Position numbers and translations under genes: made by a program
The notes under the pieces: model-generated
Database searches by the model: none
Told to the model about the DNA's origin: nothing
The model's input: only the letters and a program-made list of their open reading frames with translations
Shown here: one piece after another, positions 41,189 to 57,861 of the stretch
How positions within the stretch are numbered: the stretch's first letter is position 1
Layout: the number at the start of each line of letters is the position of its first letter
From: Terrimicrobium sacchariphilum
GTDB lineage: Bacteria; Verrucomicrobiota; Verrucomicrobiia; Chthoniobacterales; Terrimicrobiaceae
Length of the DNA: 64,000 nucleotides
Assembly: GCF_001613545.1 (NCBI RefSeq)
Contig: NZ_BDCO01000002.1
Span: forward strand, 124,001 to 188,000
Reading direction: 5' to 3'

Positions 41189-42308
41189 GATTTTCGTATA
41201 AATCCAGATGTTGCTTCGCGACAATCCGCGGAGCATGAGTCTTTTCAGCGTGATGGCGAGAGTTCCGAGCCAGTTTTGCGCGGAGTTGAGGGTCTTCCAA
41301 AAGTGTCGACAGGGCTTGTCTCATGGAGCCGGCATCTTTGGGATTGCATAAAAGGCCGTTTTCTCGGTCCTGGATGAGTTCCTTCGAACCAGAGCAATCG
41401 CTGGTGATGACGGGAATCCCGGCAGCGCTCGCTTCCAATACAGCCATTGGGCAGTTTTCTTCCAGCGAGGGGAGGACTACGATTGCCGCCTTGGTAAGTT
41501 CACTTTCGATGGTATCCCGTGTGGCAGCTCCTCGATAAATCAGATTTGAATGGGAGTGGAGGCACTCATGGAAGCTCTGGACATAGGCATCGTCTTGCGG
41601 GGCGACTCCGAAGAAATGAACTTCAAATGGAAATCTGGCGAATAGTGGTTTGATCGCATTGATCCAGGCGACCTGGTTTTTTCGCTCCTGGATATTGGCG
41701 ATGAATAAAATGCGGAGCGGGCTTGTTGGCGCCGGATTGATGCTGAAGAATCTCGACTCCACCGCATTGGGAATCACCGGAAGTTCACCGCTACGGGCGG
41801 ACAAATGCCTTTTGGTGTAATGGCTCAGGCAGGTGACGGCATCAAATCTCGAGATGCAGATGCGCTCCAGCAGTTCTTGAACGCGCCAATAGGAGCGCGG
41901 CATTAGCGGAGTGATCTTGTTAATCAGACGGATATTGCCATGAATAGTCAATACACGTGGCGCCCGGGCGGGAAAAGCTCCTGCCACGGCACACCAACGT
42001 TCTGTCCCTTGCGCGTGAATGATGTCTGGTTCGAGAGCCTTGAGCGCCCTTCTGACTTTCAGTGAGCAGCCTAGATAGGCGCTTCTTAACCAGCCCTGAG
42101 ACGAGACATAGATGGGGTGATATTGAATTCTGGAACCGATCATGCATGTACGGAAAGATCGATTTCGTACGCATGACAGGACATCCACGTTGACCTCAGG
42201 AAGTGAATCGAAACCCTCCAGCAAGGCGGCGACGGCGCTGCCAAATTGAGGGGTCTCGCTTTTCTGGCCAAATTCGCGATTGTCTACTGTTAGGAGGGCG
42301 ATGCGCAT
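41157..42308 (-). CDS. Glycosyltransferase family 4
   Basis: 383-residue GT-B glycosyltransferase. Acceptor-side DIIHAQGTERWCAVAGAF and VLTIHGNIRLINKI are followed by LPVIPNAVESRFF, then LRILFIANIQERKNQVAWI and VVLPSLEENCPMAVLEASAA (EX7E, about 285-305) in the donor domain. It starts at ATG 42308, 6 bp after the Wzy-like gene, so the two are probably cotranscribed. The last 32 bp are antisense to the end of the GT4 at 40178. Confidence 0.9.
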   Translation of the reverse strand: MRIALLTVDNREFGQKSETPQFGSAVAALLEGFDSLPEVNVDVLSCVRNRSFRTCMIGSRIQYHPIYVSSQGWLRSAYLGCSLKVRRALKALEPDIIHAQGTERWCAVAGAFPARAPRVLTIHGNIRLINKITPLMPRSYWRVQELLERICISRFDAVTCLSHYTKRHLSARSGELPVIPNAVESRFFSINPAPTSPLRILFIANIQERKNQVAWINAIKPLFARFPFEVHFFGVAPQDDAYVQSFHECLHSHSNLIYRGAATRDTIESELTKAAIVVLPSLEENCPMAVLEASAAGIPVITSDCSGSKELIQDRENGLLCNPKDAGSMRQALSTLLEDPQLRAKLARNSRHHAEKTHAPRIVAKQHLDLYENLTAKRSGTHR

Positions 42309-42314
42309 GATGCG

Positions 42315-43868
42315 CTATGACGGGATTGCTCCGGTGCTTTCCAGCTTCGCGTCTTTGCGAGCCTGGGAGCGATCCTGAAGGTAATTCTCGATCGCGCTGA
42401 GCGTGCCGGTGGCGTAAATCATCGCGATCAATGTTGGCGGGTAATCTCCAAAGATTACGATGTAGCCAAAAGGCAGATACACCAAAGGCATGGCTGTATA
42501 GATCGCCCAGGCTGCAGCAGGCGTGCCTGTCGCCTTGCGCACGAGCCGGATACTTTGCACAAAAAGGGCGAGCATCCAGACCAGCATGAGCGCGAAGCCG
42601 ACGATGCCGACAAACCGTATGGCAGAGAGTGGGCCGCTATGAAATGAACCCTGCAGCATGTGAAGCTCGTAGGATTTTGCGCCGACCATCTCTGTGCCCG
42701 ACATGAGACGCTGCATGATCAGACGGAGGACATCCTGCCGAAACCCGAATCCATCACCCAGCACCTTGTTGTTGATGACCTCGGGAGTGTTCCAGGCATC
42801 CTTCCACATGTCGACGCGCCACTCAGTGGTCTCGTCGGCGTTGGCCTTTGCTGCTTCATCCAGCCCGATGGGGAGGAAGGATACTGCTCGCTGGAGGCCG
42901 TACGGCAGTTGGACCCCTGCCGCATGGAGTCCCACGAGTCCGACCAGGCTGATAGTGCCGATAGTCACGAGGATAATGAGTTCGGACCATCTTTTCCGTA
43001 GGATTGTGCCGACAGACATGAGTCCTACCAACTGAAAGATGGCGCTTCGAAAGCCGGAGAGCGCGATGGAAACAATCGCAACGCAAAGGCCGATGAATCC
43101 AAGAAAATTGAAGGGATTGAGCAGCGTGATCGGACGAAAGTATGCACACAAAAGCAAGATCAGCGGGTAGGTGACCATGCCGTATGCGGTGAGGCGGGAG
43201 TTTTCAGACGAGGTATCCGCAGCGATGAGATCCGAGACGTCGACGCCCGAATAGATCGGATAAATGACACGACCTAACACGGGAAAGTGCTGAGTGATAA
43301 CGTTGATCCCAGCGTGGATCAGGTAGGGAATGGCGATGACCAAAGGAGCCCACCTCACAAAGCGACTCGAGGGAAACACATTGCGGAGGACAAAGTAGCC
43401 CATCATCGCAATGACAACGGTGACATAAGCCCTACCTCCGACGATCTCGGTCTCGAAGATGCGAACGCCCGCTGGATTTCGCACCCAGACGGTTACGAGG
43501 TACGCAAAATTGATCAGCAGCAGATAATCGCTCCATTCCCAGCGAGGATTGAACCGTACCCGCTTCAACGCGATGTAGGGGATCATCAGCCCGAATGTTG
43601 CGAGAGTCCCGAGTTCGGCAAAACTAAAGGGCAGCGGCAGGACGGAGGCAGAACCCGAAAGCCCCATCGTGGCAAAGATCAACATCCAGTAGTTGCGGCC
43701 GAGCGTCAGCGCGATCGTGAGACCGACGAGGACGACAAAACCCATGGCGAGGTACAGTTCATTGCCGCGGGCAACGAAAACGCCTGCAAATAATGCTCCG
43801 AAGAGGCCCAGGGCAATGACGACGAAGGCGACAAGAGCGTTTTGATTGATTGGTGCGTTGGGCGACAT
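42315..43868 (-). CDS. Wzy/O-antigen ligase-like membrane protein
   Basis: 517-residue polytopic membrane protein with about twelve hydrophobic segments and a large loop near 330-400 (VDMWKDAWNTPEVINNKVLG onward), the layout of Wzy polymerases and O-antigen ligases. A conserved-looking arginine in ALSGFRSAIFQLVG, the usual Wzy_C region, is visible near 270-285. It would join repeat units or ligate polymer on the periplasmic face of the inner membrane. Sequence conservation in these families is low, so polymerase versus ligase cannot be separated. It sits between a HAD-like gene and a GT4 with gaps of 18 and 6 bp. A second candidate lies at 54551. Confidence 0.82.
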   Translation of the reverse strand: MSPNAPINQNALVAFVVIALGLFGALFAGVFVARGNELYLAMGFVVLVGLTIALTLGRNYWMLIFATMGLSGSASVLPLPFSFAELGTLATFGLMIPYIALKRVRFNPRWEWSDYLLLINFAYLVTVWVRNPAGVRIFETEIVGGRAYVTVVIAMMGYFVLRNVFPSSRFVRWAPLVIAIPYLIHAGINVITQHFPVLGRVIYPIYSGVDVSDLIAADTSSENSRLTAYGMVTYPLILLLCAYFRPITLLNPFNFLGFIGLCVAIVSIALSGFRSAIFQLVGLMSVGTILRKRWSELIILVTIGTISLVGLVGLHAAGVQLPYGLQRAVSFLPIGLDEAAKANADETTEWRVDMWKDAWNTPEVINNKVLGDGFGFRQDVLRLIMQRLMSGTEMVGAKSYELHMLQGSFHSGPLSAIRFVGIVGFALMLVWMLALFVQSIRLVRKATGTPAAAWAIYTAMPLVYLPFGYIVIFGDYPPTLIAMIYATGTLSAIENYLQDRSQARKDAKLESTGAIPS

Positions 43869-43886
43869 GGCGCGTGAAAATGAGAT

Positions 43887-45800
43887 CTATCGGTGAAAGC
43901 GTAGGGTTTTCAAACGCCGAAGCAGGCGCAAACGTCGGAAAGTTGCGAAAAGGAAGTATTTTCCCGGCCCATTCGCGACGCGGAGTCCGCTGGGCCAGTA
44001 CTCCCGTACGATACGCGTGCCGAGGCCGGCTGCAAGGATGTCTGAGACACGGATCGCCGGGAGAAAGGGGTCGGCCGTCGCGCGATTTTGCTCCGACTGG
44101 CATGGCCAGGAGGAGAGACAGCGCACGTGTGCCGGGTTGGGTCGACGAATAAAGTTCAGCAGCAGATCCACGGCATCCTCCTTCCCGATCAGGACGTTCT
44201 CTGTCTCCAGCCGCCTTGCACTGGCGACGATGGCGTCTTGCAGGGTTTTTACCCCCCAGTCCATCTGGGGGCGCCAGGACTCTGCCGGGCGGAGGACGGG
44301 ATGCACAGAGCCATCCGCTTCCGAGTGGAATCCTGTCACTCCGGCGTGGTCGGCCGAGAATATCAGTTCCAGCAGTGACACCGCCTCGCGCCAGATTTCC
44401 GCATTTTCTTGGCGATGGTCGAAAAGCAGGCCGGTGGCGTCGCCCGAGCGAACGGCGGAGTTGAGGCTGAACAGCCCCAGGTAATACCCCTTGAATGAGG
44501 CATCTCCGTCCCGATCGGCGAGGATCGCCTGCAGAGACGCTTGCAGGTTACCCCCCCAGCCAATGTCCACGATGGCAGGGCACGGACCGAGTGCGAACTG
44601 GGCAAAGTATCTCTGGATCAGGTCGCGCTCCGCCTGGGCCTGCTGCAGGATCGCCTCGGCGATCTCGGGTCGGGTCAGAAATGCCCAGACAAGATCCTGC
44701 CTGGAGCCCACGAACGAGTCCTCCCTCAGGTCATGGGGCTGCAAAAAGGCAGAAAACTCCGTGGCGAGCCTGTCGCGCAGGTGCAGTCTATCGAGCACAT
44801 CGATCGCCCTCAAGGTCTCGGGTTCCGCAAATAACCACTGCTTGATCCGGTCATCGATCGCGCGTACTCCCGCCAGATGGAATGCCTGCCGGGAAGCCGC
44901 CACATAGTGGCACCGGATGCCTCCATGGCGCGCCGCGAGGCTCTGGGAGAGCCGGTGAAGGATCTGCCCATCACGTGCCAGGAAGCAGAGATCGGTGACA
45001 CCCTCGCGCTCCGCCGCCCGGAGGATTTCCGTATATAGCCAATACACGATGGGACCCGCGATCTCGGCGCCAAAATCCCAGACATTGCGGAGATGGGCGC
45101 TCTGGTCCGCTGGCCGGTCGCTGCGTCTGGCGAGTGCGAGGGCGCCATTGGCGCGGTACTGCGATTCTTCCCGGCTCCTGATTAGGATCACATGTTGGGA
45201 TGGAGGTTCCAACAGGATGCTCCTGATGCCGAGCGCGGCAGGAGAATGGCCATCGCTGTGGGGGTTGTCGCCGACATGGGTCCAGTCCGAGTAGTGTGCC
45301 CCGCAATCATCCTTCACACGTTGAAAAAGCGTTCCTTGATGTTTCGATGCGCCGGTTTCGCACGACATCCACAGTCGATCGCCCACCTGCCAGAGTCCGC
45401 ACTTTGCCAGCAACTGCTTTACAAAGTCGCCGGGCAGATACATATCGGAAAGGAACCCTCCGAACGTATTATCGGCGCGGGCTGCTTTTAGCAGGGAGGC
45501 GCCTGGAGGATGAGGACGCACATAGTCCAGCTCCAGCGCAAGCTCTTCGCTCAATATGGCAGCCATCACCTCGGCGTCGATATGCAGGAGGGCTTGCAGC
45601 TCCGAGTAGATCTCATCGAGGCGCGGGTCTCGCTCGTGCCGGAGCCTTTCGCCGGCCAGTTTCTCCGCCTCGACACGGGCTTTGGCCAGGCCGCGCACGG
45701 GATATCCGTGCGCGAGGCGCTGCTCGAGCACATCGAAAATGTGCCTGGGAGCAGCGACGGCGCGAGTAATGACCGTATCGAAGATGTCAAAAGTCGTCAT
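43887..45800 (-). CDS. HAD-superfamily protein of EPS clusters (COG5610-like)
   Basis: 637-residue protein. The N-terminus TTFDIFDTVITR carries the HAD motif I (Asp5 and Asp8 of DxxD-like DIFDT), with FLSDMYLPGDFV and THVGDNPHSD as motifs II and IV, so residues 1-220 form a HAD fold. The second half has a further DLCFLARDGQILHRL motif typical of COG5610 proteins and ends in an arginine-rich tail. Members occur in capsule and EPS loci, often fused to glycosyltransferases, but their reaction is not established. The ATG at 45800 overlaps the flippase stop (ATGA); the 10-codon longer frame is disfavoured. Confidence 0.78.
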   Translation of the reverse strand: MTTFDIFDTVITRAVAAPRHIFDVLEQRLAHGYPVRGLAKARVEAEKLAGERLRHERDPRLDEIYSELQALLHIDAEVMAAILSEELALELDYVRPHPPGASLLKAARADNTFGGFLSDMYLPGDFVKQLLAKCGLWQVGDRLWMSCETGASKHQGTLFQRVKDDCGAHYSDWTHVGDNPHSDGHSPAALGIRSILLEPPSQHVILIRSREESQYRANGALALARRSDRPADQSAHLRNVWDFGAEIAGPIVYWLYTEILRAAEREGVTDLCFLARDGQILHRLSQSLAARHGGIRCHYVAASRQAFHLAGVRAIDDRIKQWLFAEPETLRAIDVLDRLHLRDRLATEFSAFLQPHDLREDSFVGSRQDLVWAFLTRPEIAEAILQQAQAERDLIQRYFAQFALGPCPAIVDIGWGGNLQASLQAILADRDGDASFKGYYLGLFSLNSAVRSGDATGLLFDHRQENAEIWREAVSLLELIFSADHAGVTGFHSEADGSVHPVLRPAESWRPQMDWGVKTLQDAIVASARRLETENVLIGKEDAVDLLLNFIRRPNPAHVRCLSSWPCQSEQNRATADPFLPAIRVSDILAAGLGTRIVREYWPSGLRVANGPGKYFLFATFRRLRLLRRLKTLRFHR

Positions 45801-47143
45801 GCGACCTGGGGCGAGCCTTCCGCCTTCCAATAAGCGCCGAGCGCTCGCTTCATCAGCCAGGGAGCCGCGATGAGCACGGCGAGGCTCGGGAGGAATAGTG
45901 CCAGGGCAGCGCCTTCCGCTCCCCAGGTTTTGGCAAAGACCAGTTGCAGGCCGATGATCGCAAGCGTGGACACGATGGTGGCGACGACGAAGCCGTCAGT
46001 CTTATGCGCATGCATGAAATGCGCCATCATCAGCAACGCGGTTTGTACGAGTGTCGTTGCCGCGAGAGTCACCTGGAGCGTCATGCTGCCAAAGCGATTG
46101 CCGAAATACGGAAAGAAAATCTGTAAGGTCCCGATGAGCAGGAGGTAGGCGGTCAGGCCCGCGCATGCGATCGCCGTCCCCCGGATGAATGATGATCGCC
46201 AAAGATGAAACGCGCCGTCGCGATCCCCTTGGGCGACGAGCTGCCCCAGTTTTCCCAGTCGCGTGTAGGTCCAGGAGGTGGAGATGGACGAGGCCGAGCG
46301 CACGATATTCCAGCTGATCGCAAACTGGCCCGCAGCGGCGGGGCCGCAGATTTTGAAGACGACCGGGATCGCGTAGCTCCAGTAGAAGAACGCGCAAAAC
46401 GCGTTGAGCAGCATTTTGGCTTGAAAGGGCCATACCTCTGTACGCCACTTCAATCCTCCGGCAGGTTCCGCCCGGAGAGTGGAGAGGAACACCTTGCGCC
46501 ACGATCTCCACAGGACAATGGTCGTGACGACAGGCCCGGCTAATGCGCCAAACCCACCTGCAGTCACTCCCGCGCCGGCGATGAGCCCGCCGGAGGTCAC
46601 GGCAAACATGGTGAGCGAGCCAACCCAGCGGGCACGCATCAGCTCCTTCACGCTTTGCATCCCCTCGATGAGCGACCCAAAGGGCACCAGGAAAAGCGAC
46701 AACGCCGTGCCGATGATCAGCATGATCCACGCGGGCTGCCAGGTGACGGTCGAGGTCGCGCTGAAAAACCAAAACCCGCCGCCTCCCACCAGGAGGACGA
46801 AGAGAAGAGTAACGACCGAATAAAACTTTGCCCCAAATTGCATGACCGCCGACAGCCGTCCCGCCTCCTCGGGAGCGATGACAAAAAGCCCGTTCTCCAC
46901 CGCCAGCGATCCCCGGTACCGATGGGCCACGAGTTGAAGGATGTTTTGCCCCATCCCGGATTCAAAGATGACCTGAAGAGCCGCCAGCGACCCGATCGTG
47001 TAGTAGTAACCCTGCTCCTTGGGCCCAAGGTAAAGGAGTACCAGGTACGCGGAAACGGGGCCGGTAAGGGTGCGAAATGCCACGCCGAATGCCGCCCAAG
47101 AGATTGCGGCATCCAACTGGAGCCAGTGGAACAGCCGTTTCAA
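45797..47143 (-). CDS. Oligosaccharide flippase (Wzx-like, MOP superfamily)
   Basis: 448-residue inner-membrane protein with about twelve hydrophobic helices, typical of Wzx/RfbX flippases that move lipid-linked repeat units across the inner membrane. AISWAAFGVAFRTLTGPVSA, LGPKEQGYYYTIGSL and FVLLVGGGGFWFF are characteristic stretches; KMLLNAFCAFFYWSYAIPVV starts the second half. No ATG is available near the N-terminus: the start is a TTG at 47143 in a TTGA overlap with the GT2 stop, which supports coupled translation. It is followed by the HAD-like gene in an ATGA overlap. Confidence 0.84.
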   Translation of the reverse strand: MKRLFHWLQLDAAISWAAFGVAFRTLTGPVSAYLVLLYLGPKEQGYYYTIGSLAALQVIFESGMGQNILQLVAHRYRGSLAVENGLFVIAPEEAGRLSAVMQFGAKFYSVVTLLFVLLVGGGGFWFFSATSTVTWQPAWIMLIIGTALSLFLVPFGSLIEGMQSVKELMRARWVGSLTMFAVTSGGLIAGAGVTAGGFGALAGPVVTTIVLWRSWRKVFLSTLRAEPAGGLKWRTEVWPFQAKMLLNAFCAFFYWSYAIPVVFKICGPAAAGQFAISWNIVRSASSISTSWTYTRLGKLGQLVAQGDRDGAFHLWRSSFIRGTAIACAGLTAYLLLIGTLQIFFPYFGNRFGSMTLQVTLAATTLVQTALLMMAHFMHAHKTDGFVVATIVSTLAIIGLQLVFAKTWGAEGAALALFLPSLAVLIAAPWLMKRALGAYWKAEGSPQVA

Positions 47144-48084
47144 CGTCGGAAAATGCGTTTAATGTAAGCCTTGGCCGTTCGCAACCAGAGCCGGGGGTCT
47201 TCTGCGATCTGGTGTTCTCGTTGCAATATCCCTAGTGTTGCGATTGCTTCGCGCATCGATGGAGCGAAAGTCAGCATGTCGATGACTTTGCCGCAGTAGG
47301 AATTCCGCATGCGATGTCGCCACTCTTTCAATTCGGCCTCGGAGAAGATTTGCGACGATAATGCTCGGGCATAAGCAATTTCAAAAAAGCGTATGTCCTT
47401 AACCCATGCATTAATCTTTGGATTAAAGATCGCATTTGCATCGTGAAGAACGTAGCTGGCAACATTACGTGACAGAAAGCCGACATTTGAAGTCAGGGAC
47501 ATCGTCAACCAAGCGAGCGAGTCTCCATGTGGAATCTCGGACTCGGAGAAAAAACCTGCAGTCTTGGCCTTCTCCGTTCTGGCGACAACAGTCATAAGAT
47601 AGGCAAAATCAAAGGAACTTTTTCCCAGAGAGAGGAAAAAGTCTTTTCCTTGCATGCGTTCGGGGATATTGCGATCAAGCTCATGGATCGTTCCGGAACG
47701 GACATCCTCCATCACGATGTTTGCATGGACGAATCCTATATCCGGGTTTGTTTCTAGAAATGTGCAGGCATCTTCTAGATATGCCGTGTCGGTCAGGTAA
47801 TCATCATCACTAAGAACGACGAAGTATTTGCCCTTGCAGTGGTTGAATACCGCTGTGTGGAGGTTTCCACATAAGCCAAGGTTTTCCCCATTTCTTACCC
47901 AGCGAACTCCACGGGTCTCGTAGGACTCTCGGAGATCATCTGTGTGATCCGTAGATGCGTTGTCGCAGACCAGAACCTCCCGATCTTCAATGCTCTGGGC
48001 GAGGGCCGATTCGATGGCCCTGGGAAGCAGATCACACCTGTTATAGGTGGGAATGATGATGGACAATAGAGGAGAACTACGCAT
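47140..48084 (-). CDS. Glycosyltransferase family 2
   Basis: 314-residue GT-A glycosyltransferase. It begins MRSSPLLSIIIPTYNRCDLL; VLVCDNASTDHTDDLRESY, NLGLCGNLHTAVFNHCKGKY and FVVLSDDDYLTD (DDD metal site near 96) are the donor-site landmarks. In O-antigen clusters such enzymes include abequosyltransferases, and because it is preceded by a CDP-dideoxyhexose pathway it is a good candidate for transferring that sugar (inference). The ATG at 48084 lies in an 8-bp overlap with the upstream reductase. Composition is AT-rich. Confidence 0.9.
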   Translation of the reverse strand: MRSSPLLSIIIPTYNRCDLLPRAIESALAQSIEDREVLVCDNASTDHTDDLRESYETRGVRWVRNGENLGLCGNLHTAVFNHCKGKYFVVLSDDDYLTDTAYLEDACTFLETNPDIGFVHANIVMEDVRSGTIHELDRNIPERMQGKDFFLSLGKSSFDFAYLMTVVARTEKAKTAGFFSESEIPHGDSLAWLTMSLTSNVGFLSRNVASYVLHDANAIFNPKINAWVKDIRFFEIAYARALSSQIFSEAELKEWRHRMRNSYCGKVIDMLTFAPSMREAIATLGILQREHQIAEDPRLWLRTAKAYIKRIFRR

Positions 48085-48952
48085 TGCAATCCTCGGAGGG
48101 CAGGACTCCAGTATCTTGAAGAACGTAACGCATAACTTCATTCTTACGGTACGGTACGGCTCCCACTAAGAGCTTGCCTGAAGCATTCCAGACTTTCCAC
48201 CAGTGCTCCGCGAACTCCCTCAATGTTTGAGGATTTCCCGAGCCGATATTCAGTAGGCTAGGGGGCATATAACGGATGGGATTATTGGCAATTTGTAGGA
48301 AACGTTCAGCAGCAGCTTCAACTGGCACAAAGTCGCGGACTTGTTCTCCTTTAGTCATCGGGAAATCCCTTCCGGACAAAGCGGCTTCTCGCAAAGTGGG
48401 CCAAAACTTCCCGGGGCCTTCCCCGAGTCCAAAGACATGTGCTGGTCGCAGAATTGCGACTTCAACCTTGTAATCGTGTCCAAAAGCAATTGCCGCCATG
48501 GTCGCGGCTGCTTTTGATGCCGCATACGGGCCAGTCGGTTCCAACGGGGCATCGATGGGTATATATTCGTAACGTTCCCCGCTCTTTCCATACTCGAAAC
48601 ATGATCCACAAATGATAAAGCGAGAGACACCCGCTGCAGCGGCGGATGCCCAGCAAAGCAGGGATTCAGTTACATTAACTCGGAAGCAGTCAACCCAGTT
48701 TGCTTGGGCTGCATCGACCCCGTGAGCGGCGAAGTGTACAAGAGTACGGGCCTCCCAGTTGGGTTGAATTTGGGGTTCTTTAAGAGAGGCTTCAAACCAC
48801 GAAGCCCTTTCGGTGCCTTCTGGAATTTTTGAACAGCTAGAGCGTTTCAGCGCATGGATGACATGCCCTTTCTTAAGGGCATGTCTAATGAAACAAGACC
48901 CCAGAAATCCAGTGCCCCCCGTGACGATCAATCGCTGTTGGAAATACTGCAT
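48077..48952 (-). CDS. NAD-dependent epimerase/reductase, probable CDP-dideoxyhexose synthase
   Basis: 291-residue extended short-chain dehydrogenase with LIVTGGTGFLGSCFI (about 8-22), ICGSCFEYGKSGERYEYIP and PYAASKAAATMAAIAFGHDY (catalytic Tyr/Lys). Directly downstream of rfbF-rfbG-rfbH it fits the RfbJ/RfbS role: NADPH reduction of CDP-3,6-dideoxy-4-keto-glucose to a CDP-3,6-dideoxyhexose such as abequose or paratose. Which epimer is formed cannot be told by eye. It is separated from rfbH by 11 bp and overlaps the next glycosyltransferase by 8 bp. The gene is AT-richer than rfbF-rfbG. Confidence 0.8.
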   Translation of the reverse strand: MQYFQQRLIVTGGTGFLGSCFIRHALKKGHVIHALKRSSCSKIPEGTERASWFEASLKEPQIQPNWEARTLVHFAAHGVDAAQANWVDCFRVNVTESLLCWASAAAAGVSRFIICGSCFEYGKSGERYEYIPIDAPLEPTGPYAASKAAATMAAIAFGHDYKVEVAILRPAHVFGLGEGPGKFWPTLREAALSGRDFPMTKGEQVRDFVPVEAAAERFLQIANNPIRYMPPSLLNIGSGNPQTLREFAEHWWKVWNASGKLLVGAVPYRKNEVMRYVLQDTGVLPSEDCNA

Positions 48953-48963
48953 CGGGTTGGCAG

Positions 48964-50517
48964 CTAAACTCGACTTTTGACGAAATCAGAGATCACCTTG
49001 ATTTCATAATCGAGTTGAGCGGAGGAAAGGCCGGGGTAGGTGCCGATAAACAGCGTTCGATTCATGATACGGTCTGAGCCAGCGAGGTCGCCGATTACCC
49101 GGAATGCCTGGGGGTTTTGCTCGCGGAGACGAACGAAGGCGGGTTGACGAACGAGGTTGCCGCCGAAGAGCATGCGGTTGCCGATTTTTTTCTCGTCGAG
49201 ATGACGGGCGAGATCGGTACGGGAAAACGGAGCATTCTCACGGACGGTCATCTTGAAGCCGAACCAGGAGCAATCGGTGCGGCTGCCGGATTTGTCCCAG
49301 GAGAAATGCGTCGGGGAGCTTCCTGCTGCGTTCCAGGCGGTCGCGTGGGTGGGCAATGCAAACTGGATGTGCTCCTCAAGGTCGGCCAGGCCGGCGCGAA
49401 GGTATTGCCAGTTGTTTTTGCGAGCTTCGACAAAGGCCGGGAGCCGCTTGAGCTGCACGCGGCCGATGGCGGCCTGGGGATCGAGCGGTTTGAGATTATA
49501 ACCGAGATGGGAATAGATGTACTTGTGATCGTAGCCCTCGGGGAGTTCCCCCAATTGCCATGAGAAGCGCTTATTGCAGGTATTGTCCTTCCCGGAGGGA
49601 CACCAGCAGTCGCGGCCCCAGTCGCGGAAGCTCTCCGCGTAGGTCTTGAGCGCCGGGCGCCGGATGATATTGACCGCTCCGCCCTCGCCCATCGTGAGAT
49701 GATGGGGCGGATAAAAGGACTGCGTGCTGATATCGCCCCATACGCCGGTAGGTGCGGTCAATACCAGCTCCTCGCTGCCGGGATATTGTTCATAACGGAT
49801 GAGGGAATGGCTGCCCTCCTCGGCGATCTTGAGGAGATGGTCGAGGCCGAGGCTGCGCGCGCGGGCCACCGGCATGGAGTACAGGCAGCCGAGGGCGTCG
49901 CAGTTGTCCTCAACGAGCCAGAGGTCGTGACGGTGGCAAAACTCGAGTACGACGCCGAGATCGAACGGGTTGCCGAGAGCGTGGGCCATCATGACGGCCT
50001 TGGTCTTCCCCGGTACAAAGGCTGCCTCGAGCTGGCTGCAGTCGGCATTGCCGGTGACTGGATTGGTGTCGATAAAGACGGGTATCGCGCCATTTTGCAC
50101 GATGGGTGCGACTGTCGTCGGGAATCCGGCGGCGACGGTGATGACTTCGTCGCCGGGGAGGATGCGCTTGTGGGGAGGGAGTTTGTGCGTGGTCAGCGCC
50201 GAGAAGGCGACGAGGTTTGCGGAGGAACCCGAGTTGACCAGGAGAGAGTACTTTGCTCCCAGCGTGCGCGCGAGTTCCTCCTCGAAAGCCGCGCCCTCGG
50301 AACCCAGCGTCAACCAGAAGTCGAGGGTGGAACTGACGGCGGCCTCGACTTCATCCTCGGTAAAGACGCGAGCAGCGTACGGGATGCCGCTTTGGCCAGG
50401 TACGAACTCCGGGCGCAGAGTGTCCTCCCCGGGGCGGTTGGCTTTGTGAGCGAGGAGGGAATACTCCCGGGTGAGGCGCAATATCGTGGCTTTGAGCTCT
50501 TCGGCAGAGGTGGGCAT
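48964..50517 (-). CDS. rfbH: CDP-4-dehydro-6-deoxyglucose 3-dehydratase with 40-residue insertion
   Basis: 517-residue PLP- and [2Fe-2S]-dependent enzyme (E1) that removes the C-3 hydroxyl in 3,6-dideoxyhexose synthesis. The PLP fold is aspartate-aminotransferase-like, and the usual Schiff-base lysine is replaced by histidine in SFYPPHHLTMGEGG (His272/273), diagnostic for this family. Cluster ligands are Cys304, Cys306 and Cys314 (CWC-x7-C) plus Cys206 in VEDNCDALG. In known E1 enzymes the first two ligands are 57 residues apart; here 97, because about 40 extra residues (about 214-258) are inserted before GDISTQSFYPP. Typical length is about 437. It needs a reductase partner (E3) not seen in the window. 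Confidence 0.92.
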   Translation of the reverse strand: MPTSAEELKATILRLTREYSLLAHKANRPGEDTLRPEFVPGQSGIPYAARVFTEDEVEAAVSSTLDFWLTLGSEGAAFEEELARTLGAKYSLLVNSGSSANLVAFSALTTHKLPPHKRILPGDEVITVAAGFPTTVAPIVQNGAIPVFIDTNPVTGNADCSQLEAAFVPGKTKAVMMAHALGNPFDLGVVLEFCHRHDLWLVEDNCDALGCLYSMPVARARSLGLDHLLKIAEEGSHSLIRYEQYPGSEELVLTAPTGVWGDISTQSFYPPHHLTMGEGGAVNIIRRPALKTYAESFRDWGRDCWCPSGKDNTCNKRFSWQLGELPEGYDHKYIYSHLGYNLKPLDPQAAIGRVQLKRLPAFVEARKNNWQYLRAGLADLEEHIQFALPTHATAWNAAGSSPTHFSWDKSGSRTDCSWFGFKMTVRENAPFSRTDLARHLDEKKIGNRMLFGGNLVRQPAFVRLREQNPQAFRVIGDLAGSDRIMNRTLFIGTYPGLSSAQLDYEIKVISDFVKSRV

Positions 50518-50526
50518 GGCGGGGCT

Positions 50527-51630
50527 TTAGAAGGAGGCCGTGGCTGTCTCGGCGTAATCCTGGATTTGAGAGATGGTCAGGCGCTGATAGTCCCCGGGTT
50601 CGCTTAGCGAGGAGGCATCGCGGTACCATTCAATGGTTTTGCGGACGGTGGTGGGAAAGTCCCACCGGGATTGCCAGTGCAGGATGTGGTGGGCCTTGTC
50701 GGTGGCGAGATTCAGGAGAGTGGCTTCGTGAACGGCATGTTGGTCGGATCGGTCCGACCACTCACCGGGCCAATGCCGCAGGATCTCCTGCACGAGGTCT
50801 GCCACGGTCTTGTTGGAGCTCAGCGGCGGTCCAAAGTTAAAGGCCGAGGCATATCGGGAAAAGGAGGCGTCATTTTTCGGCGTCTGGTACAGCCGGGCTC
50901 CGAGGGTGAGATAGCCGGAGAGAGGCTCCAGCACGTGTTGCCAGGGGCGGGTGGAGATTTTGTTCCGGACGGGAATGATCTCTCCGCGGGCCAGGGCGCG
51001 AATGGAATCGGGAACGATGCGGTCATCGGCCCAGTCGCCTCCGCCGATGACATTGCCAGCTCTCGCCGAGGCAAGTTTCACGGGATTCTCCACATGGGAG
51101 AAAAAGGAGCGCCGATAGGCGGCTATGACGATCTCGGCGGCTCCTTTGGACGCGCTATAGGGATCGTGGCCGCCGACAGGGTCTTCCTCGCGGTAGCTAT
51201 GGACCCATTCCTTGTTTTCATAGCACTTGTCTGTGGTGATGGAGACGACTGCGCAGTTCTTTTCCATCTGGCGGGCAGCGTCGAGTACGTGAGCGGTCCC
51301 CATGATGTTGGTGCTCAATGTCTCGACCGGCTCGCGATAGGAGAGGCGTACCAGGGGCTGGGCGGCGAGGTGAAAGATAAAATCGGGCTGGGAGGTCGCG
51401 ACGACCTGCGAGACGAAGTCGCGATCACGGATATCTCCCAGGCGATGCTCGATATCGGCATCGAGACGGAGCTGGTTGAAGAGAGAGGGTGATGTCGGAG
51501 GAGGCAGGGCTGCGCCGGTCACCTTCGCGCCGAGAGTCAGCAGCCATTGAGTGAGCCATGCGCCCTTGAACCCCGTATGACCAGTGACGAGGACTCGCTT
51601 CCCCTTGTAGATATCGAATGCGGTGTTCAC
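50527..51630 (-). CDS. rfbG: CDP-glucose 4,6-dehydratase
   Basis: 367-residue NAD-dependent short-chain dehydrogenase converting CDP-glucose to CDP-4-dehydro-6-deoxyglucose. Signatures are RVLVTGHTGFKGAWLTQWLL near residue 12, FHLAAQPLVRLSYREP, and DPYSASKGAAEIV with catalytic Tyr/Lys. VVSITTDKCYENKEWVHSYR is specific to this subfamily. Start is a GTG at 51630. It is between rfbF (13-bp gap) and rfbH (9-bp gap), the conserved order of dideoxyhexose clusters. Confidence 0.95.
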   Translation of the reverse strand: MNTAFDIYKGKRVLVTGHTGFKGAWLTQWLLTLGAKVTGAALPPPTSPSLFNQLRLDADIEHRLGDIRDRDFVSQVVATSQPDFIFHLAAQPLVRLSYREPVETLSTNIMGTAHVLDAARQMEKNCAVVSITTDKCYENKEWVHSYREEDPVGGHDPYSASKGAAEIVIAAYRRSFFSHVENPVKLASARAGNVIGGGDWADDRIVPDSIRALARGEIIPVRNKISTRPWQHVLEPLSGYLTLGARLYQTPKNDASFSRYASAFNFGPPLSSNKTVADLVQEILRHWPGEWSDRSDQHAVHEATLLNLATDKAHHILHWQSRWDFPTTVRKTIEWYRDASSLSEPGDYQRLTISQIQDYAETATASF

Positions 51631-51643
51631 AAAGCGTGACGAG

Positions 51644-52426
51644 TCACCAGACTTTCCAGGGGGCTTTGGCGGTTTCCCAAAGGTTGTTTAGTAGCGTGAA
51701 CTCCATAAAGGTGTCCATTGGCTGCCAGAATCCTTCGTGCCGATATGCATGAAGCTGCCCGTCGGTGGTCAATTTTTTCATCGGGGCCTGCTCCAGCATC
51801 ACGCTGGGGTCGTCGGGCAGGTAATCGAAGAGGCGGCGGCTGCACGCCATGTATCCGCCATTGATATAGCCACCTTCCGCCTGGGGTTTTTCGTTGAAAC
51901 CGGAGACGGTGGAGTCGCTGGTAATGCCGAGCTCTCCGAATCGTCCCGGCGGATGGACGGCCGTAAGAGTGCAGACCTTCCCGGCCCGGTGATGTGTTTC
52001 GATCAATCGCGGGATGTCGACGTTGCCGACGCCATCGCCATACGTCAGAAGGAATGTTTCGTCATTACCCAGATACCTTTCAATGAGACGGATGCGATAT
52101 GCCGTCATGGAATTTTCGCCCGTGTCGCAGAGGGTGACCTTCCAGTCCTCCTCCTCGTGACGATTGTGGAACTGTATCGAGGACTCTCTGCCCAGGCAGA
52201 GCGTGGTATCGCATGTGTGCCAGAGATAGTTGCGGAAGTAGTCCTTGATCATTTCGCCCTTATATCCCAGACAAAGGATGAACTCTTTATACCCGTAATG
52301 GGCATAGGTCTTCATGATGTGCCACAGGATCGGGCGATTACCGATGGGAACCATCGGCTTGGGACGGTATTCCGTTTCTTCCCGCAAGCGCGTGCCTTTT
52401 CCTCCGCAGAGAATCACTACTTTCAT
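51644..52426 (-). CDS. rfbF: Glucose-1-phosphate cytidylyltransferase
   Basis: 260-residue nucleotidyltransferase making CDP-glucose from CTP and glucose-1-phosphate, the first step of CDP-3,6-dideoxyhexose synthesis. It opens MKVVILCGGKGTRLREETEY with the GGxGTRL pyrophosphorylase motif and RPKPMVPIG; YGDGVGNVDIPRLIETHH supplies the metal site. Length matches RfbF (about 257). It starts the minus-strand rfbFGH unit, 144 bp downstream of the GbsR-like regulator. Confidence 0.95.
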   Translation of the reverse strand: MKVVILCGGKGTRLREETEYRPKPMVPIGNRPILWHIMKTYAHYGYKEFILCLGYKGEMIKDYFRNYLWHTCDTTLCLGRESSIQFHNRHEEEDWKVTLCDTGENSMTAYRIRLIERYLGNDETFLLTYGDGVGNVDIPRLIETHHRAGKVCTLTAVHPPGRFGELGITSDSTVSGFNEKPQAEGGYINGGYMACSRRLFDYLPDDPSVMLEQAPMKKLTTDGQLHAYRHEGFWQPMDTFMEFTLLNNLWETAKAPWKVW

Positions 52427-52459
52427 ATCGAGTCAGGGGTGCCAGGGTTTATGGGCATC

Positions 52460-52492
52460 GGCGGAGTAGCTGCCTGATGGCATGCTGCCGCC
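52460..52492 (-). promoter_or_regulatory. Hairpin in the rfbF leader
   Basis: In the 144-bp gap between the regulator and rfbF, GGCGG (52460-52464) pairs with CCGCC (52488-52492), and inner AGC-TGCC and GGCA-(T)-GCT segments extend the stem around a TGAT loop. No T-run follows on the minus strand. It could terminate the regulator transcript or act as an attenuator for the dideoxyhexose operon; the remaining bases of the gap show no clear promoter. Confidence 0.35.
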
Positions 52493-52570
52493 CTTGGTCG
52501 TTTCTCGAGGAAAAAACCAAATGGAAATGCCGAAGATGGGGTGTTTCTCCGCATGGGCGGAGGGGATGCT

Positions 52571-53074
52571 CTAGGTGCCTTGGAGCAGCCGTTGAACAAA
52601 GGGGAGGACGGAAGCGCCGCGTTTGTGCCACTGGGTGATCCTTTGCAGCCGGACCTGGGCCTCGGATTTTCGAGGTTCGGGCAATTGAGCAACCATATCT
52701 TCCATCTGAGCAAGGCGTTCATTGCCCGCAGTCAGTCGTGGGATCACCCGGCTTTGGAGGAAGCCCGCTATCAGGGGCTTGAGTTCCATGCGGGCTTGGT
52801 AGGTGTGAGTGCGGCTACGCTCCTCTTTGGTGCGCCGAATGGCTCCCAGATGCTCGAGTTGGCGCAAACCCTGGCTGGCTGTTCCTTTACTAACTCCGAG
52901 GCGTGCAACGATTTCCTCCATGGAAAGGGGGATCGGCGACCAGAAGAGCAGCCCATAGATGGTTCCCAGGGAGCGAGGATTTCCGAATAGGTCGGCCAGT
53001 TCCTCGAACAAAAAGATGAACTCGCGTTCAAGCGCGGCTTCGGACTGAGCTGGGGGAGTCGCAGGCGTGCTCAC
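52571..53074 (-). CDS. GbsR/MarR-family transcriptional regulator
   Basis: 167-residue winged helix-turn-helix protein of the GbsR type. LFGNPRSLGTIYGLLFWSP leads into the HTH LSMEEIVARLGVSKGTASQG and QLEHLGAIRR (about 50-85), followed by a helical C-terminal part likely for dimerisation. GTG start at 53074. It is cytoplasmic, on the same strand as and just upstream of the EPS sugar genes, and next to glf, so it is a likely regulator of the EPS locus; ligand unknown. Confidence 0.85.
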   Translation of the reverse strand: MSTPATPPAQSEAALEREFIFLFEELADLFGNPRSLGTIYGLLFWSPIPLSMEEIVARLGVSKGTASQGLRQLEHLGAIRRTKEERSRTHTYQARMELKPLIAGFLQSRVIPRLTAGNERLAQMEDMVAQLPEPRKSEAQVRLQRITQWHKRGASVLPFVQRLLQGT

Positions 53075-53166
53075 CAGAGGAAACTTACTCAGGCCCTTTG
53101 AAAATTCAATTCAAAATGAACTGTTTTTCTGAATCGGGTCGGAGAGCCAAAATGCGTTGCTCTTGG

Positions 53167-54411
53167 CTAGGAGATTTCGTCGTTGGGAAAGACTGGTGGT
53201 GTCGTGCCCGATCTGGCGGCGAGAAGGAAACGCTCGCTGAAATCCAAGGCTTCACCGATTACGGTCTCCATGTCCATATACCGGTAGGTTGCGAGACGGC
53301 CAAGGAAAGAGACATTGGTCAGGGCCTCCGCGAGCGAGCGGTATTTTGCGAGGAGGCGTTTATCGGCCGCCAGCCGTTTAGGATAGTACGGTGTGTCGAG
53401 AGGACCGGTTTCCTTGCTGAACTCGCGGAAAACAACAGTTCTCTCGTGACTTTCCCAAGGGGTGAAGTGTTTGTGCTCATGCATCCGGGTCCATGGGATG
53501 GCAGGGTCGGGGTAGTTGAGTACAGCTGCGCCCTGGTAGTCGCCCTCGGCATCGATTTTCTCAAACTCGATCGTCCGGTAGCCGAGCCGTCCCTCGCTGT
53601 ATTGGAAGAATGCATCGATGGGACCCGTGTAGAAATAATGGTCGTACTTTGGCGAGGCCAGTTCGGAGGGATCAAACCTCGTCTGGAGATGCACTTTAAT
53701 GGCGGGGTGATCGAGGATCCCCTGGACGATGTCGGAGTAGCCATTCTCGGGGATGCCCTGGTACTCTTTATCGTAGTAATTGTCGTCGTAATTGAACCGC
53801 ACCGGGAGACGTTTGAGGACGGCGGCGGGAAGCTCTCGGGGCTCGCAGCCCCATTGCTTTTTGGTATATCCGTAGAAGAAAGCCTCATACAGCTCCCGCC
53901 CAAGCATCTTGAGGGCCTGCTCCTCAAAGTTTGCCGGTTCCGAGATGGATGGATCTCCCAGTTTAGCGACAAACTCCCGAGCCTCGGTCGGGCTGAAGGT
54001 TTTCTGGAAGAACAGATTGATGGTAAGGAGGTTAATAGGGAGAGGGAAGACCCCATCCGAGGTAACCGCTTTTACACGGTTGATGAAAGGTCGCATCACG
54101 CCGAAGCGGTTGACATAATCCCATACCCGGCGGCTGTTGGTGTTGAAAATATGCGGGCCGTAGTGATGGACCATCACGCCAGAGGTCTCATCGCGCGATG
54201 TATGGCAGTTGCCAGCGATGTGATCGCGCGTGTCGATGACGTCGATAGTGCAAGGAAGCTCCTCGGCAAGTTGGCGGGCAGTGACTGCCCCGGAGAAGCC
54301 TGCGCCAATCACCAGGAATCTATGTGACCGAGGGGAGTTGTTCGAAAGCTCTTCGATGCGAGGCTGGTTCATAGATGAGAGATGTCCGAAAAGAGGAGCA
54401 GCATCCGTCAT
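53167..54411 (-). CDS. glf: UDP-galactopyranose mutase
   Basis: 414-residue FAD enzyme interconverting UDP-galactopyranose and UDP-galactofuranose, so the EPS likely contains galactofuranose. FLVIGAGFSGAVTARQLAEE is the FAD-binding loop (about 32-51); HHYGPHIFNTNSRRVWDYV, YGYTKKQWGCEPRELP and FNYDDNYYDKEYQGIPENGY are diagnostic active-site stretches. Family length is about 370-390; the N-terminus may begin instead at ATG 54372, which removes 13 residues. It is divergent from the plus-strand export genes across 139 bp. Confidence 0.94.
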   Translation of the reverse strand: MTDAAPLFGHLSSMNQPRIEELSNNSPRSHRFLVIGAGFSGAVTARQLAEELPCTIDVIDTRDHIAGNCHTSRDETSGVMVHHYGPHIFNTNSRRVWDYVNRFGVMRPFINRVKAVTSDGVFPLPINLLTINLFFQKTFSPTEAREFVAKLGDPSISEPANFEEQALKMLGRELYEAFFYGYTKKQWGCEPRELPAAVLKRLPVRFNYDDNYYDKEYQGIPENGYSDIVQGILDHPAIKVHLQTRFDPSELASPKYDHYFYTGPIDAFFQYSEGRLGYRTIEFEKIDAEGDYQGAAVLNYPDPAIPWTRMHEHKHFTPWESHERTVVFREFSKETGPLDTPYYPKRLAADKRLLAKYRSLAEALTNVSFLGRLATYRYMDMETVIGEALDFSERFLLAARSGTTPPVFPNDEIS

Positions 54412-54550
54412 TGGCGGCTAGGTAAAAATGGGCATGGTCAAAAAGCTGCCATATGCATGCGGCGCCGGTCGGGAGGATCTGGCGACTTGAGAGGCGCAAA
54501 CGACTTGGGGATTCCAACTGGAGCGATTTCTGCCTAACCGTGATGTTTCC
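54412..54550. promoter_or_regulatory. Divergent promoter region between glf and export operon
   Basis: 139 bp between leftward glf and rightward ligase/OMP/wzc/wza genes. A direct repeat CGACTTG occurs at 54483-54489 and 54501-54507, 18 bp start to start, about 45-65 bp before the ATG at 54551, which could be a regulator site. No Shine-Dalgarno site precedes that ATG. Promoter hexamers are not assigned. Confidence 0.4.
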
Positions 54551-56458
54551 ATGCGGGTGTTTGTTGCCATTTTGTGTGCGCTGGCCATTTGTGTCGGTCA
54601 GTATTTTACGGGGAGTGGCATGCGTCCCGTGCTGGCATTTCCAAGTTATGCGATCCTCGCGATTGCCGGCTTGCTGAGCCTGCCAAAGATTTGGAATCGA
54701 TCTTTTGTCCTGCCTCGGTGGGAGTGTTCTCTTTTCGCAGGGGGATTCATTCTTTGGCTGCTTTTGCGTCAGAGCGCTCCGGATGGGACGTGGATGGCTG
54801 GGGGATTTTTCCGACTCACATTGGCCTGCGCGGTGATGTATTTGATCGTTGGGGGATCGATGAATACTCCTGGAAGCCGAGTGATCTTCCTTTCGATCCT
54901 GATGGTGGATGGCGTCATCCAGGCCGCCATCGGATTTGCCCAGTTCGGAGGGCTGCTGGGAAGATGCCCTCAAGGATGGGTCTCCGAGTTTCATCGGATG
55001 TATCTGGATAGTCCTCTCGCTTTGCCCGGACAGATCATGCGGCGGGCGCACGGGCTATATCAGAACCCCAATCATCTCGCATGGTTTCTGAATGCAATCG
55101 GCCTGTTTGCGATTTCCCTTGCTTGCCTGGGGCGAGGCAGGGCGTGGCAAAAGGTGATCTTTGCATACGCTGGCATTGTTTGTCTGGTAGGCGGATTGCT
55201 TTGCCTAAGCCGCGGCGGGGTTATCGCCTTGATTGCGGGCTCGATATGTTTAGTCGGACTCGCCATCACGGCGCTGGTTGCCAGTGGAAGCGGGCGTCGG
55301 TGGGCTGTTTCTTCCCTACTGATAGCTGCCATCGTCATCCCGGCCACAATTGTGATCGTCTTTGCCAGTCAATCCGTAACCTTCCAGGCGAGGGCGACCC
55401 AACTGCTGTCCGATGACTACCGGTCGAGACTTTCGCTGACCTCGTTACGCCATTTGCAGGTATCTCCATTGTTCGGGACAGGAGCCGGGACTTACATCGA
55501 CTACAGTCGGTTATATCGCGATGGCTCCACCGAGCGGGATGATTACCAGGCTCATAACGATTGGTTGCAGATTTCCGGAGAGTACGGGTTTGTGGCGCTG
55601 TTTTTATTCCTGTTCGCTGTGGCGCTGCACATGCGCTCCGGTTGGATCGGATATCTCTCCGCTCTCCGGACACGTCTGGCGTTGGGGAGTTTACCACAGA
55701 GTAATTCATCTGCGGTTTTGATGGGGGCGCTATCTGGGGCCACGATGTTTGGAGTACACTCCCTGTTTGATTTCAACCTGCAGGTCGCTTCGAATGCACT
55801 ATTGGCGGCCGCAGTGGCTGGAATGTTGGCTGGGCAGCCTCAGTCTGGCGGGGAGGGGCGGCAGCCCACCTCTTCACGGATTGGCCGGTACCTCTACGGA
55901 GGCGCCCTTGGGGCTGTCTCACTCGGGTTGATTTTGTCTCTTTGGAGCTCGCGTAGTGAGGTGTGGACCTTGATCGCGGAAAATGGCGTGATCGATGGCA
56001 ATTTGGGCAGCGCAAGCTTGAGTGCGGAAAAAGCACTCTCCATCGGACCCAAAAACGCATGGACCCAGTTTGTTGCCGGAGGTGTGGCTTCCGCCAATGC
56101 CGAGAGTCTCAAAGGGGCGGGTCGACAAGAGGAGGTGGCGCTGTCTCGGGAGCGGTTTCTCGAGGCTGCACGGCTGGCTGAGACAGAGCGAGTGTTTCAT
56201 ACCTCGCTTGTGTACGTGGCTTTGGGCAGTGGAGATCTGGACTTGGCCGAAAAGGAGGCTGTCGATGTCATTCGCAGAGATCCCTTGCGGCCCGTCGGGT
56301 GGGAGCAGTTGGGCGTGATAGCCCAACAAAAAGGCGATATGCCTTCCGCCCTGCGTTATTACGGGATAGCATCGAGCTTGACCGGGACATCCCTCGACAG
56401 GGAAAAATTGAAGGAGCTTCAGGACCGGGTGCGGGCTCGGGCGCTGGAGGCGAGGTAA
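54551..56458 (+). CDS. O-antigen ligase/polymerase-like protein with TPR-like tail
   Basis: 635-residue membrane protein. About twelve hydrophobic helices occupy residues 1-470; the Wzy_C-type loop lies near 280-340, with LLSDDYRSRLSLTSLRHLQ and the conserved HNDWLQISGEYGFVALFLF (His near 336). Residues about 480-635 are a soluble helical tail with repeated alanine/leucine patterns (EKALSIGPKNAWTQFVAGGV, SGDLDLAEKEAVDVIRRDPL) resembling TPR repeats. It probably joins or releases EPS chains. It is the first gene of the plus-strand export operon; the beta-barrel gene follows 41 bp after the stop. Confidence 0.85.
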   Translation: MRVFVAILCALAICVGQYFTGSGMRPVLAFPSYAILAIAGLLSLPKIWNRSFVLPRWECSLFAGGFILWLLLRQSAPDGTWMAGGFFRLTLACAVMYLIVGGSMNTPGSRVIFLSILMVDGVIQAAIGFAQFGGLLGRCPQGWVSEFHRMYLDSPLALPGQIMRRAHGLYQNPNHLAWFLNAIGLFAISLACLGRGRAWQKVIFAYAGIVCLVGGLLCLSRGGVIALIAGSICLVGLAITALVASGSGRRWAVSSLLIAAIVIPATIVIVFASQSVTFQARATQLLSDDYRSRLSLTSLRHLQVSPLFGTGAGTYIDYSRLYRDGSTERDDYQAHNDWLQISGEYGFVALFLFLFAVALHMRSGWIGYLSALRTRLALGSLPQSNSSAVLMGALSGATMFGVHSLFDFNLQVASNALLAAAVAGMLAGQPQSGGEGRQPTSSRIGRYLYGGALGAVSLGLILSLWSSRSEVWTLIAENGVIDGNLGSASLSAEKALSIGPKNAWTQFVAGGVASANAESLKGAGRQEEVALSRERFLEAARLAETERVFHTSLVYVALGSGDLDLAEKEAVDVIRRDPLRPVGWEQLGVIAQQKGDMPSALRYYGIASSLTGTSLDREKLKELQDRVRARALEAR

Positions 56459-56499
56459 GAAATGTTTGCGTAACTGGAAAGTTGCGCTACAACGCCCGC

Positions 56500-57861
56500 A
56501 TGGTTTCAAAAAATGCTGCTCCCCGACTCGCAGCGCTGGCCGTGCTTGGGTATGCGCTCGGCTTTGTTGCGTCTCCTGCGCGTGCTCAGGTGAGTTTTTA
56601 CAGTGCTCCGCCACCGGCTGATTTTGGCGGTGGGCTGGGCAATCCTACGACTATCCCGACTTCCTTGAGCGAGGCGGAGGCTCCTGCGCCGGATGAGAAT
56701 GCGACTGGCTCCGCTGCTCCTTCCGGAGGTTCATCGGATGGGAAATCCTCTCTTGGGACCGGGCTTTTCTCCAAACTGCCGATTGATTTCACCTTTGCGG
56801 TCCGTGAAGGCTTCGATGACAACTTGTTCACTACGAAGAACAATACGGATAGCAGTTTCTACACAAACTGGGCTGCTGGAGCATATTACACATTTGGTAC
56901 GCCTCGCTTGCAGCTGCAGACGAGCCTGGGTGGCGGCATCACGTACTACTACACCCGCCCGGGTGACAAGGTCGACTTTAACGGGAACTACAGCCTGAGC
57001 GCGGTGTATCTTGCGACTCCTCGCCTCACGCTGTCGATCAACTCGACGACAGCTTATCTCTCCCAGCCCGACACCAATATCGTCGGTGGTACGAACCGTC
57101 AGGATGGCGACTACATGTATTCCAATACGGTGCTCACGGGCTCGTATCAGTGGAGCCAGAAATTCTCAACGGTCACCAGCTACAATTTCAATGTTATCTA
57201 CTACATGGATAGCAACTTGAACCAGAATCAGGGCCGCATTGAGCAGACAATCGGGCAATCGGCTCGCTGGTTGCTCCTGCCCAAGACCACGGTGGTGGCG
57301 GAGTATCGAGCCAATCCGGTGACCTACTTTGACGCGGATCTCAATGTTTTTAACAATTTCTTCCTCGTTGGTTTTGATCAGGTCTTCAACCCGCGTTTCA
57401 CGTGGTCTGCCCGTGGCGGTATGCAGGTTGGCTTTGACCAGAATCCTGATGATGGCGACTCGGTTTACGTTGGGCCTTACGGAGAGAGCACGCTGACTTA
57501 TCAGTTTGGTCGCTCTTCGTCGATTTCCTGGATGATGCGCTATGGCACGGAGGCCTCGGGCTTGAATAACGTGACTCAGCGCCAGACGTTCCGCACAGGT
57601 TTGAGTCTTGCCCATGCTTTCACTCGTCGCATCTCGATGACGTTGGGGGTCAATTATCAGGCGAACTACTACGACCAAAACAACGTGATCTCTTCCTACT
57701 ACGAAAATGTTTTCGACGTCGCGGTGGGGGCATCCTATCAGATCAATCGGCACTGGTCGCTCTCGACTGGATATCAGTTCACCGCTGACGTCGCGCCGCA
57801 GGCCGAGTACCGGGAATATACGCGCAATGTCGTATACATCGGGGCGAATCTGGCATTTTAG
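56500..57861 (+). CDS. Outer-membrane beta-barrel protein of the EPS export operon
   Basis: 453-residue protein. A signal peptide ends at ASPARAQ (about residue 30), followed by a Pro/Ser/Gly-rich linker to about residue 90. From IDFTFAVREGFDDNLFT (about 96) onward the chain alternates hydrophobic and polar residues with many aromatics (AAGAYYTFG, YNFNVIYYMDS, MTLGVNYQANYYDQ), and it ends in phenylalanine, the signal for barrel insertion. Residues 96-453 suit a barrel of roughly 16-18 strands. Located between the ligase and wzc, it is likely the outer-membrane pore for the polymer. The frame is open to 56299, but ATG 56500 starts the signal peptide. Confidence 0.84.
   Translation: MVSKNAAPRLAALAVLGYALGFVASPARAQVSFYSAPPPADFGGGLGNPTTIPTSLSEAEAPAPDENATGSAAPSGGSSDGKSSLGTGLFSKLPIDFTFAVREGFDDNLFTTKNNTDSSFYTNWAAGAYYTFGTPRLQLQTSLGGGITYYYTRPGDKVDFNGNYSLSAVYLATPRLTLSINSTTAYLSQPDTNIVGGTNRQDGDYMYSNTVLTGSYQWSQKFSTVTSYNFNVIYYMDSNLNQNQGRIEQTIGQSARWLLLPKTTVVAEYRANPVTYFDADLNVFNNFFLVGFDQVFNPRFTWSARGGMQVGFDQNPDDGDSVYVGPYGESTLTYQFGRSSSISWMMRYGTEASGLNNVTQRQTFRTGLSLAHAFTRRISMTLGVNYQANYYDQNNVISSYYENVFDVAVGASYQINRHWSLSTGYQFTADVAPQAEYREYTRNVVYIGANLAF

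Follow-up and report, generated by a model that had tools for sequence, protein, structure and literature searches.

The minus-strand gene at positions 48964-50517 of the window (the whole stretch of 64,000 nucleotides from Terrimicrobium sacchariphilum that was analysed) encodes an RfbH-like CDP-4-keto-6-deoxyglucose 3-dehydrase of the E1 type that is standard apart from one loop extension, which is real, confined to a clade and modelled with confidence. It is probably an RfbH/E1-type enzyme in which the insert serves as a structural elaboration and the electrons come from a general carrier.

The gene product comprises 517 residues; frame 1 of the plus strand contains stops over the same interval, with shorter plus-strand ORFs nested inside it. 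The identification as RfbH, first made in a sequence-only reading, is borne out by the NCBIfam equivalog model NF011936, which scores 629.7 bits against a curated cut-off of 423, and Pfam places the protein in the DegT/DnrJ/EryC1 family. The nearest solved structures by sequence (phmmer) are those of Yersinia E1 (3bcx and 3bb8), and a fold comparison with the whole protein as query matched both (Z 49.0; rmsd of 1.9 across 411 residues for 3bcx and of 2.0 across 412 for 3bb8), the 50 rows listed consisting of E1, ColD and other aminotransferase-fold chains only. E1 (AscC/DdhC/RfbH), the CDP-6-deoxy-L-threo-D-glycero-4-hexulose-3-dehydrase of Yersinia pseudotuberculosis, shares with the present protein its fold, the four cysteines, the active-site histidine and a CDP-sugar operon. 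The latter, however, carries a hairpin insert of about 40 residues past the first ligand, a C-terminal segment of 31 residues instead of 10 (10 being the count in 44 sequences outside its clade) and the additional Cys211 and Cys416, and no E3 partner was found in its genome. ColD, the GDP-4-keto-6-deoxymannose 3-dehydratase (2gms, 3b8x), likewise has the same fold (Z 42.0-43.4), a histidine for the lysine and C-3 deoxygenation, but it lacks an iron-sulfur cluster and, in the excerpts of PMC8987622, its PMP is regenerated by glutamate without an E3 step. All four cluster cysteines that are missing in ColD are present here, together with the other marks of RfbH and E1: the NF011936 match, a histidine at the position of the PLP lysine and an operon with rfbF and rfbG.

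These two genes lie upstream on the same minus strand, rfbG (CDP-glucose 4,6-dehydratase; 50527-51630) with 482.5 bits to TIGR02622 (cut-off 278.45) and rfbF (glucose-1-phosphate cytidylyltransferase; 51644-52426) with 336.8 bits to TIGR02623 (cut-off 300.25). Downstream, again on the minus strand, follows an SDR-family NAD-dependent epimerase/reductase (48077-48952; PF01370, 119.9 bits), for which no NCBIfam model scored over its cut-off and the nearest solved chains are generic epimerase/dehydratases; its position makes it the probable next step of the pathway, a 4-ketoreductase. Further downstream are a family-2 glycosyltransferase and Wzx-like flippase, HAD-like and O-antigen-ligase-like proteins, the last three scoring under the cut-offs of those families. 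Inside the polysaccharide cluster lies a 647-residue protein (43887-45830, minus strand) that matches a HAD-hydrolase model only weakly (28.3 bits against a cut-off of 155) and has no Pfam match at 1e-3. At two other loci, L084 and L085, the plasmid-borne rfbH is followed by a transketolase-like gene pair, which suggests branched-chain sugar products, and their incomplete gene table contains no nearby E3-like gene.

Cysteines occur at residues 160, 194, 206, 211, 304, 306, 314 and 416. Four of them form the arrangement C206-x97-C304-x-C306-x7-C314, in agreement with the initial description of three intact ligands and a first one, Cys206, 97 residues away. By phmmer alignment to 3bcx, Cys206 (codon 49900-49902, minus strand) pairs with Cys193 of E1, the expected first ligand of the [2Fe-2S] cluster, and Cys304, Cys306 and Cys314 (49576-49608, minus strand), the remaining expected ligands, pair with residues 251, 253 and 261. 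His272 (codon 49702-49704, minus strand), which replaces the PLP lysine, pairs with His220 of E1; 3bb8 is the H220K mutant. The expected ligands are thus in place, and all four cysteines as well as His272 are invariant in the conservation alignment, which covers 65 of the 81 rows at hand. The gap between the first two ligands is 57 in Yersinia E1 and 97 here, so that the exact C-x57-C-x-C-x7-C pattern is absent.

The alignment with E1 also confirms that the insertion separates the first cluster ligand from the second. Insert 1 (residues 214-257; 49747-49878, minus strand) is about 40 residues longer than the corresponding part of E1, and the phmmer alignment with 3bcx is broken at 216-257; alignment within the clade gives the same picture. 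It had been placed just before the PLP-site histidine, and it does lie upstream of His272, but it ends 15 residues before it and belongs to a predicted beta-hairpin between Cys206 and His272. AlphaFold2, run on the 65-row alignment, models the protein with a mean pLDDT of 91.8 and the residue blocks from 211 to 260 at 94-98, with strands at 212-216, 241-244 and 251-256 and helices at 217-222 and 226-234. The insert would lie at the surface of the protein, and its high pLDDT could also stem from a conserved binding surface instead of from structure alone. A literature search of titles and abstract openings returned no report of this insert.

The distribution of the insert was followed in 81 rows, namely the query (L001) and the best 80 of at least 586 relatives found in a scan of genome contigs, a selection in which distant RfbH are therefore under-represented; the query's own genome contains a second, weaker locus (L002), which gave no hit and was excluded. 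In a tree built on 406 columns without the insert columns, 37 of the 81 rows group as one clade (support 100/98). A further search of 77 genomes, this one included, yielded matches in 17 and, from the 16 of these that are not the present genome, 17 additional loci, which were assigned to the clade by the insert-2 motif LP[TS]HA and not by tree; this motif occurs in 53 of 54 clade rows before duplicate removal and in none of the 44 other rows. L120 is identical in sequence to L032, and a single genome supplied both L119 and L121, which are fragments; this leaves 53 distinct clade rows, 51 of them measurable. The first gap measures 72-112 in 40 of these 51 and 58-65 in the other 11. Outside the clade it is 57 in 27 rows, 61 in 16 and 100 in a single one, the Elusimicrobium sequence L066. 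Only this last row of the 44 thus falls within the 72-112 range, and with 17 of 44 departing from 57, the gap number does not define the family. The textbook C-x57-C spacing is therefore no family rule: dozens of residues fit between the first two ligands while the ligands themselves are kept.

The insert had been described as absent from known family members, but it is frequent within the clade; it is common in RfbH, but inside this one clade only. The question whether it occurs in a verrucomicrobial clade is answered largely in the affirmative, although planctomycete and Cyanobium/Synechococcus rows and one MAG row labelled Oxalobacteraceae (L018) also belong to the clade, a mixture that suggests lateral transfer or mis-binning. 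Within the clade, insert 1 falls into length classes of 5-12, 19-30 and 38-59 residues; a helix of the LGLDHLLKIAE type is present in 17 of the 53 rows and a shorter NSPG type in another 17. An insert 1 of at least 24 residues requires at least four changes on the tree, one of them at L066, whose sister L082 is without insert. The tree is silent on gain versus loss, several branches within the clade are weak, and any direction of length change would be a matter of interpretation.

A better mark of the clade than insert 1, which varies within it, is by sequence comparison insert 2 in the C-terminal domain (residues 387-417; 49267-49359, minus strand; LPTHATxW...WDxxG). All 37 clade rows have 26-69 residues in this segment and all 44 others exactly 10, and a single change on the tree accounts for it. 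As a clade mark, insert 3 (near residues 460-473) was rejected, since it measures 13-14 residues within the clade and 7, 11, 12 or 18 outside. Positions 211 and 416 are each cysteine in 28 of the 37 clade rows and in none of the 44 others; both are present together in just 24 of the 37, and they were dropped as strictly co-varying new ligands. Position 412 is often cysteine in relatives and is serine in this protein.

Insert 1 looks like no artefact, considering its open frame, a GC content of 0.64 compared with 0.61 in the rest of the gene, and DNA that matches only itself genome-wide at E <= 0.01. The latter result also eliminates a dispersed repeat or mobile piece as its source; there is no periodicity in its DNA (p 0.776), and the five tandem repeats found in 42000-57000 all lie outside the gene. 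Could the insert nevertheless be neutral filler, kept as harmless at a permissive loop? Conservation is poor in the second half of insert 1, and L066, L008 and L106 carry repeat-like DNA at the site of insert 1, as does L010 in its insert 2 (periodicity p 0.002 each). The first half (YSMPxxxAxxLGLDHLLKIAE), however, is conserved and predicted to be folded. Across 16 long-insert rows (120 pairs), the insert core, that is the columns of residues 214-245, has a mean identity of 0.57 compared with 0.73 elsewhere. Its dN/dS is below 1 (0.02-0.60) in all 40 long-group pairs with a defined ratio, out of 44 of 120 with unsaturated dS outside the insert, and 38 of these pairs have a higher ratio in the core than elsewhere in the gene, values that are rough because the core spans about 32 codons and its dS often exceeds 1. 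Neutral filler is for these reasons an unlikely account, if one with some points in its favour. The substitution pattern points to purifying selection on the insert core that is looser than on the remaining gene, and together with the pLDDT and identity values it describes a maintained element that is more loosely held overall. The shorter insert type behaves similarly (identity 0.59 versus 0.72 elsewhere, 136 pairs), with one listed pair above a dN/dS of 1 (L012-L031, 1.13). Among five cyanobacterial rows (L021, L022, L029, L031 and L035, with pairs involving L023 left out), conservation is higher in the insert than elsewhere in the protein in 9 of 10 pairs, which hints at a real function there and makes the insert possibly important in Cyanobacteria.

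E3 supplies the electrons to Yersinia E1 according to excerpts of PMC8987622, and the sequence-only reading had proposed that the insert may alter the docking of this reductase or add a regulatory surface. The combination of Fer2, FAD_binding_6 and NAD_binding_1 that characterizes E3 in an E1/E3 two-component system was not found in this genome. FAD_binding_6 (PF00970) was not detected in the genome, which is 95.97% complete, so that an E3 gene could be missing from the assembly; in a control, 8 of 14 genomes were positive for this domain and 6 of 14 were also without it. Fer2 occurs in two ORFs only, one that reads as NuoG by eye and one of 266 residues that was taken for SdhB by size, and the E3-like protein P0002 had no match in this genome (G000). 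A scan for E3-like ORFs by a motif that we take to be typical of them returned none in 593 selected flanking ORFs of 80 loci or in the window. As a query for the wider sample we used a Sphingomonas protein adjoining rfbFGH (L086), presumably an E3 from its context and domain makeup. A single full-length E3-like match was obtained in one of 37 clade genomes, this genome counted (G016, the genome of L018), and in none of the 44 others; when weaker matches to the query at E <= 1e-5 are counted, 19 of 37 clade genomes and 22 of 44 others respond. Such matches include two-piece ones in one ORF in G005, G014, G016 and G026 of the clade set and in G055, G057 and G073 of the other set, and a one-piece partial match in G072 (residues 17-223 of a 356-residue ORF); four of the two-piece ORFs have 408-438 residues, which would fit NqrF. 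The lack of a full-length match is general in the sample and unlinked to the insert. A tie between insert and E3 loss was discarded, full-length matches being missing on both sides.

A changed docking of the reductase is accordingly not upheld: no E3 was found here, the full-length match is nearly absent with or without the insert, and the generality of this absence removes the partner that the idea requires. A variant, in which insert 1 offers a surface for the docking of, or regulation by, a substitute for E3, e.g. flavodoxin, would accord with an insert that is folded with high confidence, under purifying selection and close in sequence to the ligand Cys206, in a genome where E3 was not found and flavodoxin is present. 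But a full-length E3-like match is equally absent (0 of 44) where RfbH is without the insert. Clade genomes with a gap of 58 (rows L024, L025, L033, L034 and L036, i.e. G022, G023, G031, G032 and G034) have none either, four of the five showing weaker partial matches only, and the inserts of the clade vary in length between 5 and 59 residues. While docking of another carrier on the insert is possible, an E3-replacing surface is distinctly unlikely as the explanation of insert 1.

A general carrier is the most likely source of electrons for the deoxygenation, considering that E3 was found neither here nor in the majority of the RfbH genomes sampled, whether or not they have the insert. SpnQ, whose substrate is a TDP sugar of an antibiotic pathway, offers a precedent. 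This spinosyn 3-dehydrase is likewise an E1-like [2Fe-2S]/PMP enzyme and, as described in excerpts of PMC8987622, works with general ferredoxin or flavodoxin pairs in place of E3. The genome encodes a flavodoxin of 150 residues (PF00258, 113.7 bits), a CPR-type reductase of 397 residues (FAD_binding_1 and NAD_binding_1) and a 57-residue ORF with two Fer4 matches, all three candidate electron carriers only; the presence of the first two, the best candidates, makes an SpnQ-like electron supply plausible by analogy. An RfbH of the preferred kind, a structurally elaborated E1-type enzyme fed by a general carrier, would use PMP and a [2Fe-2S] cluster on Cys206/304/306/314 to remove the C-3 oxygen of CDP-4-keto-6-deoxyglucose, and its product would be a 3,6-dideoxy sugar for a surface polysaccharide. 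The insert of about 40 residues is then predicted to be a lineage-specific folded extension of the beta-hairpin after the Cys206 loop that leaves ligands and active-site histidine in place, a structural elaboration that would contribute no new catalytic element.

Loss of the E1 chemistry, with the protein acting either like ColD, as a dehydratase that needs no reductase, or as an aminotransferase, could be read from the missing E3 and from the aminotransferase activity that SpnQ displays without reductase in excerpts of PMC8987622. Yet the four cluster cysteines, unneeded for either role, are invariant in 65 rows and His272 stands in place of the aminotransferase lysine, making such a loss very improbable. 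We give equally little credence to the clade as a remodelled, E3-independent E1 branch in which inserts 1 and 2 and cysteines at 211, 412 and 416 near the cluster form a redox-input surface for flavodoxin or a general carrier.

That most of the RfbH genomes examined lack a recognisable E3 is a more interesting lead than the insert. With 80 of 81 genomes without a single full-length E3-like match, a figure that is an indication and not a census as many of the genomes are draft MAGs, the Yersinia/Salmonella E1/E3 model may fit a minority. Excerpts of PMC7851689 describe that no product was obtained from recombinant E1/E3 of two species, with cluster damage suspected.

The loops of some relatives carry repeat-like DNA. 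Beyond the four significant cases, periodicity is weak in L037 (p 0.01) and in insert 2 of L105 (p 0.015); it was rejected as a general source of inserts, most rows showing none and insert 1 of L006 and of L010 not being significant. The L066 insert, at the same site and of similar length, was modelled from 64 of 81 rows with pLDDT blocks of 38-53 (residues 215-246 below 50); this insert, which is independent of that of the clade, is predicted to be disordered, and its low pLDDT may partly stem from the absence of homologous insert rows. It is rich in CCAATCCT-like repeats, and in-frame CCAATCCT-, CAATCAA- and GAACCAA-like units lie within the RfbH loops at L066:4598-4738, L006:4637-4807, L008:4619-4789 and L010:4631-4771.
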